This document shows positions 25,013 through 29,488 of a DNA stretch of 52,402 nucleotides, one piece after another; within the stretch, counting starts at the first letter, position 1, and every line of letters starts with the position of its first letter. The stretch is from Planctomycetota bacterium (GTDB lineage: Bacteria; Planctomycetota; UBA1135; GCA-002686595): assembly GCA_016220035.1 (NCBI GenBank), contig JACRIO010000164.1, positions 1 through 52,402 on the forward strand, in the 5' to 3' direction. The position numbers and the translations under genes are program-made. The notes beneath the pieces are model-generated. The model was not told the DNA's origin and ran no database searches. It saw only the letters and a program-made list of their open reading frames with translations.

Positions 25013-26305
25013 GTGCCCGTGATCGGACTCGTCCAGCGCAACCCGGCCTTCCGCAGGCTTTGGCTCTCGCAGATCGTCAGCCAGACCGGCGACTGGCTGA
25101 ACCGCATGGCGTGCATCGTGCTCATCGGCCGTCTGGGCGGCGATTCGGCGGCGCTCGGCGCCTTCTTCGGGGTCGAGCTCGCGCTGCGCCTCATTCCGCC
25201 CGCGCTGCTCGGCCCGCTCGCGGGCCCGCTCGCCGACCGGATCTCGCGGCGCTTCCTCATGGTCGCGTCCGATCTCGTGCGCGCGCTGATCGTGCTGGGC
25301 TTCCTGTTCGTCGACGAGCAGGGCGAGCTCGGTCTCCTGTACGCGTTGGTCTTCCTGCAGATGGCCGCGAGCGTGTTCTTCGACATCGCACGCACGGCCG
25401 CGCTGCCCGACACGGTCTCGCGCGCGGAGCTCTTCGACGCGCACGCGCTCTCGGCCGCGACGTGGAGCGTGATCCTCGGCGTCGGCGCGCTGCTCTCGGG
25501 CCTGCTCGTCGGATGGCTCGGCGTGCGCGCGGCCTTCCTCGTCGACGCGGCGTCGTACGTGGTCAGCGCGCTGTTCCTCATGGGGATGTCGCTGCCCGCG
25601 CCCGCGAAACGCTCGGAGCCCTTCCTGTGGAGCGAGATCGTGCGCTTCACGGACTTGCGCCGCGGTTTCGCGCACGCGCGCGAGCTCGGCATCGTGCCCG
25701 TCCTGTGGACGAAGACCCTGTGGGGCGGCGCCGGCGGCTTCCTCGTCATCCTGTCGCTCGCGGGCTCGGTGCGCTTCGGCGAGTCGTCGGCGGAGGGCGC
25801 GGACGCGCACGCGACGGGCGCCCTTTTCTCCGCGCGCGGAATCGGCACGTGGATCGGGCCGATCCTGCTCGGACGCCTGCTCGGCAAGGAGGACGCCGCG
25901 CTGAAGAAGCAGATCCTGCTCGGCTTCGCCTTCGCCGCCGTGGGCTACGCGGCGTTCGGCTTCACGCACGGCCTCCTGTTCTCGTGCCTCGCTGTCGGCT
26001 TCGCGCACTTGGGTGGAAGCGCGCTCTGGGTCGCATCGACGATCCTGTGGCAGCGCCGTGTCGCGGACTCCTTCCGCGGCCGCGTGTTCGCGTTCGAGTA
26101 CCTCGGCATGTGCATCTCGTTCGCCGTGTTCGGACAGCTCGCGGGGCTCTTGTTCGACGCGACGCACTCGCTCGCGATCACGGTGTGGGCCGTGAGCGCG
26201 CTCGTGTTCGTCCTCGGACTCGTGTGGGCATGGAACGCGCGCACCAGCACGCTTCCCGCGCCGGTGCCCACGCTGGTCGAGGATCCGCCCGAAGGCGAGC
26301 ACTGA
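25013..26305 (+). CDS. Major facilitator superfamily transporter (exporter-like, MFS_3)
   Basis: A 430-residue membrane protein with about ten to twelve hydrophobic helices. The start FRRLWLSQIVSQTGDWLNRMACIVLIGRLGGDSAALGAF is typical of the enterobactin exporter-like group. The loop between helices 2 and 3 reads PLAGPLADRISRRFLM, the MFS motif A (G-x-x-x-D-R-x-x-R-R) region, and SFRGRVFAFEYLGMCISFAVFGQLAGLLFD is in the second half. GTG at 25013 or GTG at 25019 is the start. The substrate is unknown. The C-terminus PVPTLVEDPPEGEH is soluble. It is probably transcribed alone from the short divergent region. Confidence 0.86.
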   Translation: MPVIGLVQRNPAFRRLWLSQIVSQTGDWLNRMACIVLIGRLGGDSAALGAFFGVELALRLIPPALLGPLAGPLADRISRRFLMVASDLVRALIVLGFLFVDEQGELGLLYALVFLQMAASVFFDIARTAALPDTVSRAELFDAHALSAATWSVILGVGALLSGLLVGWLGVRAAFLVDAASYVVSALFLMGMSLPAPAKRSEPFLWSEIVRFTDLRRGFAHARELGIVPVLWTKTLWGGAGGFLVILSLAGSVRFGESSAEGADAHATGALFSARGIGTWIGPILLGRLLGKEDAALKKQILLGFAFAAVGYAAFGFTHGLLFSCLAVGFAHLGGSALWVASTILWQRRVADSFRGRVFAFEYLGMCISFAVFGQLAGLLFDATHSLAITVWAVSALVFVLGLVWAWNARTSTLPAPVPTLVEDPPEGEH

Positions 26306-26346: not shown

Positions 26347-26496
26347 GCGCGCGTCCCCGCTCGCGCGGGAAACTCGAGCGCGGGGCGAGCTCACCGAACA
26401 GCACGTCCGCATGTGCCCGCTGGCGCGGGGAACTTTCGCGTCGGTCGGTTCCCGCCGCGATTCGAGGCCCCAAGTCCTCGCTCGCGCGGAGAACTC
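26347..26496 (-). CRISPR. Degenerate type I-E-like CRISPR relic, three repeats
   Basis: On the minus strand three 29-base units begin at 26496, 26435 and 26375, so the period is 61 and 60, as for 29-base repeats with 31-32-base spacers. Unit cores are GAGTTCTCCGCGCGAGCGAG, AAGTTCCCCGCGCCAGCGGG and GAGTTTCCCGCGCGAGCGGG. Positions 2-20 of the second are identical to the well-known E. coli type I-E repeat, and the others match about 19-20 of the first 22 positions. The 3' ends of the units have diverged and the intervals (26376-26406, 26436-26467) are unrelated to each other. No cas gene is in the window and no fourth unit is convincing. I read it as an eroded, inactive array. Confidence 0.62.
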
Positions 26497-26670: not shown

Positions 26671-26702
26671 AACGGCCGCCCCTCGCCACCCGGCCGTTTT
26701 TT
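26671..26702 (+). terminator. Rho-independent terminator, plus strand
   Basis: AACGGCCG (26671-26678) and CGGCCGTT (26691-26698) form an 8-base perfect stem with a 12-base loop, followed by a run of six T (26697-26702). The nearest plus-strand gene, the MFS transporter, ends 365 bases upstream, so the transcript would run through the CRISPR relic, or an unannotated RNA ends here. Confidence 0.65.
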
Positions 26703-26869
26703 CCTGCCACCCTGGCCGATGCGGCGTCGCAAGTGGCTGCCTTTTAGGATTTTGCATTGACAGGATGGGTGTAGGAATTTCCAATCATGGGGAGTTCCCA
26801 ATGCCCCGTCTCGGTCCAGGACCGCGGCGGAGCCCCTCGTCCCGGGCCAGGGGTCCTGAGCGCACCACC

Positions 26870-29488
26870 ATGATTCGACACCACTCGACTGCTCCTTCGT
26901 CTCTCGGCCGCTTCGGCGCCCTCCTGTGCGTCGCGCTGACCAGCGCGGCCGCGGCGGCGCAGAGCCGCACCTACACGCTCGACGCCGACTTCGCGGAGGG
27001 CGTGCTCACGAGCGTCAACTTCACGGCGGTTCACGATCAACTGCAGCTCGACGTCGCAGCTGGCGGCGGCTCGCTCGACTTCTGCGCGGTGTCCGCGACC
27101 GGCCGCAACACGCTGGTGCGCTTCGACGCCAACACGGGCGCGATCCTGGGTGAGTACCGGACGGCGCCGCAGGGGCTCGCGGGCAACCCCTCCCGCACGT
27201 CGATCGACGCCGCGGGCAACGTCTGGGTCGGCAACCGCGACGAGCAGTCCGGCGGCCTCGGCTCGGTCGTCCGCATCGGCGTCTGCGTCGGCGGAACGCG
27301 CGTCGACTCGAACGGTCTGCCGAACCCGAGCGGCGAGTTCCTCGCTCCCCCCTTCCTCTACAGCACCTGCGTCGACCGCAACGGCGACGGGCTGATCCAC
27401 ACCTCGCGCGGCATCGGGAACGTGCTCGCGTGGCCGAACATCACGGACGGCGCGGGCGGTCCCGACGGCATCGTCCAGGACGCGGCCGACGAGGCGATCC
27501 AGATCTTCCAGCGCACCACTGGAACTCGAGTGCGCCACGTCTCCGTCGACGGCAGCGGCGACGTCTGGGTCGGCGGCTACCCGAACTTCCCGACCGCGTT
27601 CAACAAGATCAGCGGCGTGAACGGCGCGATCTTGAGCTCGTTCATCCCGCCCGGCTGCGGCGGGCAGGGCGGCGTGATCGATCCGCTCGGCCGCATCTGG
27701 TCGGCGAGCCCGAGCGAGCAGACGATCCTGCGCTACGACACGAACACGAGCACGGGCACGTGCATCTCGCTCGGCGCGGGGCTCATCCTCCCCCACGCCC
27801 TGGCGCGCGACAGCCAGAACAACATCTGGTCGATCCAGGAAGGCACGTTCACCGTCGCGAAGATCAACGCCGCAGGCGCCGTCCAGGCGGGCTTCCCGCG
27901 CCGGCTCGGCGGAGCCGCCGACCACCCCACGATCGCGGTGACGCCAGCGAACGACCACGTCTGGGTCAGCCGCTCGGGCACGACCAACTCCTCCATCTTG
28001 CGCCTCGACAACAGCGCGAACCTCCTGTCGACGATCAGCCTCGCGCCGAACGGACTCGACGCGCGCGGCATCTCCGTCGACGCGAACGGCAAGGTGTGGG
28101 TGACGAACTTCACCACGAACAACGCGCAGCGCATCGACCCCGCCATCGGCCCGAACGGCCTCGGTGCGGTCGACATGACGGTCGACCTCGGCGCGGGCGC
28201 GACGCCGTACAACATCGGCGACTTCACGGGCCGCATCACGCTGGGCTCGATCCAGCCGAGCGGCAACTGGACGGTGATCTACGACAGCAACGCGACGAAC
28301 ACGCAGTTCGGCACGATCCGCTGGAACGCGTCGGTGCCGGCGAACACGAGCTTCGGCGTCGCCTACCGCGCCGCGAACTCCGTCGCCGCACTGTCCGCCC
28401 TGCCCTACGTCCCCGCGGTGAACGGCCAGGCCTTCACGGGCGTCTTCGGACGCTTCATGCAGGTCAAGGCGGACTTCACGCGCGCCAATACGACGATCAC
28501 GGCGACGCCGGTGCTCACCGACCTCACGATCGAAGCCATCCAGGCCCCGCCGCCGCCGCCCGTGTGCGATCCGGCGCAGCGCGTGCCGGGCAGCTTGCTC
28601 GTCTACCCCGAATTCGACAACCGCTTCGGCGACACGACGCTGCTCACCGTCACGAACGTGGACGGCGAGGGCAGCGACGTCAACGTGGAGTTCGTCTACA
28701 TCGGCAAGCGCGACGCAAACGGCAACCCGCTCGACTGCCTCGAGGTGAACCGCACGCGGCGCCTCACGCCGAACGACACGCTCTCGCTGATCACGCGCAA
28801 CGACAACCCCAACCAGTCGCAGGGCTACGTCTACGCGTTCGCCAAGAGCCGAACGACGGGCCAGGCGATCGTGCACAACGCGCTGATCGGGCAGGCGCTC
28901 GTGATCGACGGCATCGAGTCGCTCGACTACTCCTACAACGCCTACTCGTTCCTCGCGCTCGGCAACGAAGGCGAAGCGACGGATCGCGACGGTGACGGGA
29001 TCCGCGACCTGAACGACGTCGAGTACCAGTGCGCGGGCGACGAGACGCTCATCCCGCGCTTCCTGGGACAGGGCAAGGGCGTCCACAGCAGCCTCGTCCT
29101 GATCAACCTCACCGGCGGCGCCCGCTTCGAGGCGACGCTCGACTTCCTCGCGTTCAACGACAACGAGGAGGCGTTCTCGGGACAGATCGTCTTCCAGTGC
29201 TGGGACAAGCTGGAGCTCGGCGAGATCTCGCAGGTCTTCACCGCGGGCTTCCTCGAGACGACCGGGCATGCGCCGCAGGAGAACGTCCAAGGCGTCGAAA
29301 CGGGCTGGTTGCGCATCGACGGCAACGTCGCGCAGTCCTCCGCCACCAGTTTCGACGACCCCGCGTTCCTCGCGCTGCTCGTCGAGCGCGTCGGCAACTA
29401 CACGGTGGCCGACCTGCCGTTCGAGACCGGGTCGCAGACCAACGGTGACTTGCTGCCGCGCGGAGTGCTCGGCGACACGAGCCCGTGA
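26870..29488 (+). CDS. Secreted beta-propeller protein (NHL/Vgb-like) with calcium-type motif
   Basis: An 872-residue exported protein. The start MIRHHSTAPSSLGRFGALLC begins a signal peptide cleaved near AAAAAQS. Residues about 60-420 contain recurring blade motifs such as GNVWVGNRD, GDVWVGGYPNF, NNIWSIQEGTF, DHVWVSRSGTT and GKVWVTNFTT, spaced 40-70 residues apart, as in virginiamycin B lyase-like or NHL propellers. A beta-rich region follows, then a Pro-rich linker (APPPPPVCD) and a C-terminal part with DRDGDGIRDLNDVEY, a thrombospondin type 3/EF-like calcium loop. An upstream in-frame ATG at 26801 has a good GGGGAG ribosome site but would add 23 non-hydrophobic residues. The likely role is extracellular or cell-surface; no enzyme activity can be assigned. 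Confidence 0.83.
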   Translation: MIRHHSTAPSSLGRFGALLCVALTSAAAAAQSRTYTLDADFAEGVLTSVNFTAVHDQLQLDVAAGGGSLDFCAVSATGRNTLVRFDANTGAILGEYRTAPQGLAGNPSRTSIDAAGNVWVGNRDEQSGGLGSVVRIGVCVGGTRVDSNGLPNPSGEFLAPPFLYSTCVDRNGDGLIHTSRGIGNVLAWPNITDGAGGPDGIVQDAADEAIQIFQRTTGTRVRHVSVDGSGDVWVGGYPNFPTAFNKISGVNGAILSSFIPPGCGGQGGVIDPLGRIWSASPSEQTILRYDTNTSTGTCISLGAGLILPHALARDSQNNIWSIQEGTFTVAKINAAGAVQAGFPRRLGGAADHPTIAVTPANDHVWVSRSGTTNSSILRLDNSANLLSTISLAPNGLDARGISVDANGKVWVTNFTTNNAQRIDPAIGPNGLGAVDMTVDLGAGATPYNIGDFTGRITLGSIQPSGNWTVIYDSNATNTQFGTIRWNASVPANTSFGVAYRAANSVAALSALPYVPAVNGQAFTGVFGRFMQVKADFTRANTTITATPVLTDLTIEAIQAPPPPPVCDPAQRVPGSLLVYPEFDNRFGDTTLLTVTNVDGEGSDVNVEFVYIGKRDANGNPLDCLEVNRTRRLTPNDTLSLITRNDNPNQSQGYVYAFAKSRTTGQAIVHNALIGQALVIDGIESLDYSYNAYSFLALGNEGEATDRDGDGIRDLNDVEYQCAGDETLIPRFLGQGKGVHSSLVLINLTGGARFEATLDFLAFNDNEEAFSGQIVFQCWDKLELGEISQVFTAGFLETTGHAPQENVQGVETGWLRIDGNVAQSSATSFDDPAFLALLVERVGNYTVADLPFETGSQTNGDLLPRGVLGDTSP

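Follow-up and report, generated by a model that had tools for sequence, protein, structure and literature searches.

A probable type I-E CRISPR array relic in a Planctomycetota genome

The organization of a locus carrying short, regularly spaced units was analyzed in a stretch of 52,402 nt, hereafter the window, from a 4.78-Mb Planctomycetota genome. An initial annotation made from the sequence had described this locus as an eroded type I-E CRISPR array without cas genes. The units lie on the minus strand, in the 564 nt that separate an MFS transporter gene from the next gene. The elements are distributed as follows:

25013..26305, plus strand: MFS transporter gene, flanking the array; syntenic in the closest relative, where the array is missing
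26347..26375, minus strand: unit 1, 3'-most in the crRNA sense, GAGTTTCCCGCGCGAGCGGGGACGCGCGC
26376..26406, minus strand: spacer A, 31 nt, ACGTGCTGTTCGGTGAGCTCGCCCCGCGCTC
26407..26435, minus strand: unit 2 (middle), AAGTTCCCCGCGCCAGCGGGCACATGCGG
26436..26467, minus strand: spacer B, 32 nt, CCTCGAATCGCGGCGGGAACCGACCGACGCGA
26468..26496, minus strand: unit 3, a probable eroded I-E repeat, 5'-most in the crRNA sense, GAGTTCTCCGCGCGAGCGAGGACTTGGGG
26870..29488, plus strand: gene for a large, secreted-looking propeller-type protein, flanking the array; syntenic in the closest relative

The neighbouring genes, classified by Pfam, are ordinary chromosomal ones; the array flank is GC-rich, and no anomaly was seen in the local base composition. 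By inspection, a terminator-like sequence (AACGGCC-14 nt-GGCCGTTTTTT, 26671-26702, plus strand) was seen whose loop exceeds the reach of the terminator scan and which probably ends the MFS transcript. The array is antisense within the MFS 3' untranslated region, upstream of this sequence. A motif resembling GGATG--AGGA-TTCCAAT, visible by eye upstream of the propeller gene both in the window and in the closest syntenic relative (G006), is perhaps a conserved promoter. Rfam scans returned chance matches only and none to a CRISPR-repeat family; a weak Guanidine-III riboswitch match at 26800-26864 (minus strand; 19.2 bits against a gathering score of 36, E 0.57) is probably also due to chance.

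The three units are found exactly where they had been annotated, with start-to-start distances of 61 and 60 nt on the minus strand. Their 23-nt cores are identical at 19/23, 20/23 and 18/23 positions in pairwise comparison, i.e. a sum of 57/69. From unit to unit, column identity is 82% for positions 1-22 (the hairpin core), 57% for positions 23-29 (the 5'-handle part), and only 29-31% in the 30 columns flanking the units on each side. This drop sets the unit at about 29 nt, the type I-E length, and indicates that the intervals (32 and 31 nt in a register anchored on GAGTT) are unrelated to each other, in line with the initial annotation. The repeats are not near-identical, as those of an active array would be: pairwise identities range from 78 to 87%, which argues for a relic. 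All three are mutated, each differently, and some changes break stem pairs; the stem of unit 3 carries one C-A mismatch. The hairpin of unit 3 folds at -11.8 kcal/mol (z -1.5, not significant), and fold energies of the units are ordinary for their composition (z -0.6 to -1.5). No leader or promoter was found on the minus strand upstream of the first repeat, a consensus scan being weak evidence on this point.

The significance of the triple was evaluated by a background scan for any three 23-mers spaced 55-65 nt apart, in which likeness to CRISPR repeats was not used. No triple reached a sum of at least 51 in 3.14 Mb of simulated Markov-1 sequence, compared with 57 for the array. A sample of 372,877 bases from the same genome gave a single marginal triple (sum 51), and 211,560 bases from relatives gave one unrelated periodic site (sum 54). 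The triple is thus far beyond chance.

To place the units among known repeats, their 22-nt cores were aligned with intact type I-E repeats: 19 to 21 of the 22 positions are identical, the value for unit 3 against the GCGA-loop core of the Klebsiella repeat being 21/22. The announced match over 19 consecutive positions (AGTTCCCCGCGCCAGCGGG) was recovered in unit 2 (26434-26416, minus strand) and is shared with the E. coli repeat. The period, spacer length and palindromic core are all those of type I-E, as had been proposed. Within the window, I-E core matches of at least 20/22 are confined to these three sites, and the best one in the 373-kb sample of the same genome is 18/22. A two-unit pattern with a free interval of 36-46 nt was then scanned over 257 Gb of prokaryotic genomes. 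It retrieved 12 loci, and 12/12 are regular 61-nt I-E arrays with repeats starting GAGTTCCCCGCGC, hosted by Enterobacterales, Actinobacteria and one Oscillospiraceae MAG; being strict, the pattern misses the array of the window, whose units are mutated. With the arrays of Enterobacterales and Actinobacteria (repeat GAGTTCCCCGCGCSAGCGGGG-...) the locus shares the repeat start, the palindromic core and loop, the 29-nt unit, the 61-nt period and the 32-nt spacer. It differs from them in having only three units, each separately mutated, no leader and no I-E cas genes found, and the 5'-handle part of its units resembles none of the reference repeats compared.

Type I-E systems of the phylum itself are a poorer match. 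Cas7e is present in 17/392 genomes of the phylum, whose I-E repeats mostly form one distinct subgroup (GTCTTCCCCACGC--GTGGGGGTGAACCG-like). Arrays of this kind share with the locus the general layout and the 61-nt period but belong to another repeat subgroup: the five repeats compared have 12-16 of 22 core positions in common with the units. The repeat type is thus enterobacterial/actinobacterial rather than that of the organism's own phylum, which suggests a probable arrival of the array by horizontal transfer from another lineage. This likely foreign origin goes beyond what had been annotated.

We examined the distribution of the units in the genome and in related genomes. The total number of core matches in the genome is 46, against 35 for a reversed control pattern, and the only unit matches with 0-1 mismatch that lie near one another are these three. 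They are thus not members of a dispersed palindrome family, the alternative that had been raised against the CRISPR assignment. The second alternative, intervals conserved among relatives as ordinary sequence, was not borne out either: the sequence that follows the orthologous gene in relatives lacks the array. The two-unit pattern revealed no other array in 61 relatives, nor in the 154 genomes of the order besides this one, and no intact array with this repeat was found in the genome itself or in the 154 genomes of the order. In G006 the order DUF2071-MFS-propeller is kept without the array, and the gap from the MFS gene to the next gene is about 205 nt, i.e. about 360 nt shorter than in the window. 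This intergenic region may be taken as the best approximation of an empty site, from one distant relative at 58% protein identity.

The search for cas genes agreed with the initial annotation. Models of Cas1, Cas7e, Cas6e and Cas8e gave no match at E<=0.001 in the genome, and the Cas3 model gave only matches below the cut-off; this model also responds in all 14 control genomes. In the family, 81 genomes were searched and Cas7e was found in none. The assembly is 83.7% complete in 341 contigs, and cas genes could sit in the missing part; the I-E cas genes are likely absent from the genome.

The origin of the two spacers was then considered. Nothing convincing was found for spacer A in phages, in viral contigs or in its own genome. 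Neither spacer had a phage BLAST match below E 0.07, the two-unit pattern and exact words of the spacers were missing from 2.9 million viral contigs, and the plasmid search gave weak partial matches only (about 74-89% identity). No good spacer match was found elsewhere in the window. When the array was used as a DNA query against the genome, only one other place was found: the region of spacer B (26438-26470) is identical at 30/33 positions to a [2Fe-2S] ferredoxin gene of the same genome (contig C137, 7363-7395). This gene adjoins one with an IspH-like product (4-hydroxy-3-methylbut-2-enyl diphosphate reductase). The match spans exactly 33 nt and ends abruptly at both sides; 33 nt is the length of the E. 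coli I-E prespacer. With a repeat end set at 26470, two bases before the GAGTT-anchored one, the match is preceded by AAG, readable as a PAM; the GAGTT-anchored register places GGG next to the match and leaves two bases of spacer B mismatched. A BLAST E-value of 6e-6 was judged too optimistic, as several other 231-nt segments of the window reach 46-48 bits against the 373 kb, and pairs of ungapped 33-mers between the 52-kb window and 373 kb of the genome were therefore counted. There were 10 pairs at 28 identities, 3 at 29, and the ferredoxin match alone at 30; the corresponding chance expectation for the full genome, with two spacers and a few offsets taken into account, is about 0.002-0.003. 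A relative's ferredoxin gene was rejected as the source, orthologous loci in relatives matching at 22/33 at most. According to Stern et al. 2010, as cited in PMC6990116, about 0.4% of spacers are self-targeting, a value that the prior for one true case in two spacers exceeds only slightly. A spacer B derived from the host genome, a possibility that the initial annotation did not raise, is suggested by these counts as somewhat more likely than a chance match.

Several explanations of the locus were weighed. Chance periodicity in GC-rich DNA could be invoked, as the genome has 68% G+C with abundant CG words, and as the number of core matches with 2 mismatches is near that of the control; but the triple score was neither approached in the simulation nor reached in the 373 kb of real sequence, and it is exceptional even when I-E likeness is left aside, which makes this the least probable of all explanations, with next to no weight. 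A different kind of hairpin element, such as a protein-binding or RNA-processing site of the MFS 3' untranslated region that became I-E-like by convergence, would account for a stem core better kept than the rest of the unit and for the position between the MFS stop and the terminator-like sequence. Against it, the genome holds no further copies, the fold energies are ordinary, and convergence would hardly combine a GAGTT start with 29-nt units and a 61-nt period; we regard it as improbable, if slightly less so than the others.

Three further explanations would keep the array or its RNA in use. The array might still be served in trans by cas genes lying in the missing 16% of this fragmented assembly. 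The absence of Cas7e from the 81 family genomes, the different mutations and broken stem pairs of the three repeats, and the lack of an intact array with the same repeat make this extremely unlikely. A regulatory guide is also conceivable, by analogy with the CreA genes of CreTA modules, where degenerate repeats outside a normal array flank a partly self-matching spacer (PMC8501985, PMC9458426); such repeats would yield a small RNA with which Cascade represses a chromosomal gene. The hairpin core better kept than the handle and the match of spacer B to a host gene go in this direction. However, Cas7e, Cas8e and Cas6e were not found in the genome, so that such regulation is unlikely. Moreover, CreA acts by a short seed on a nearby toxin promoter, whereas here the match covers 33 nt within a coding sequence on another contig, with no adjacent matching promoter seen and no other good spacer match in the window, and the minus strand has no promoter-like site; we consider this very improbable. 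Finally, a domesticated CRISPR remnant, in which the hairpins are under selection and spacer B, without type I-E Cas proteins, targets the ferredoxin gene as guide or antisense RNA, would be as unlikely as continued use in trans.

In our view the locus is very probably what is left of a type I-E array that no longer functions, with three repeats and two spacers on the minus strand, and the diverged, inactive array that had been proposed is the best-supported reading. A type I-E array would have reached the lineage from outside; the cas genes would then have been lost, or the array would have arrived without them, and it would have shrunk to three repeats that now drift between the transporter gene and an unrelated gene. 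As the I-E cas genes searched for were not found, the repeats would have drifted and crRNA would be neither made nor used. Spacer B was possibly copied from the host ferredoxin gene, in which case self-targeting could have favoured the loss of cas genes. Autoimmunity from self-targeting is a reported reason for cas loss in other bacteria (PMC6990116), and it may have acted in this lineage. A comparable case is the orphan array left after cas loss in Lactobacillus acidophilus NCFM which, as cited in PMC6990116, is also cas-less with a possible self-matching spacer; the locus studied here differs in that the repeats themselves are decayed and two spacers are left. Some observations count against a relic: only three units are present, all are diverged, no leader is recognised and no Rfam CRISPR-repeat family matches. 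Erosion is also uneven (core 82%, handle 57%), unlike uniform neutral drift, although the sample is small. The greater divergence of the handle might result from chance with so few units, or point weakly to selection on the hairpin; no other observation hints at a retained function.

Cas-less and decayed arrays are well known, and in this respect the locus is an ordinary genomic fossil. Its interest comes from the repeat type, foreign to the sampled I-E loci of the phylum and otherwise enterobacterial/actinobacterial, in a family with Cas7e in 0/81 sampled genomes, and from the possible self-derived spacer. If the ferredoxin match is real, it would be a natural case of self-targeting tied to the loss of a CRISPR system.
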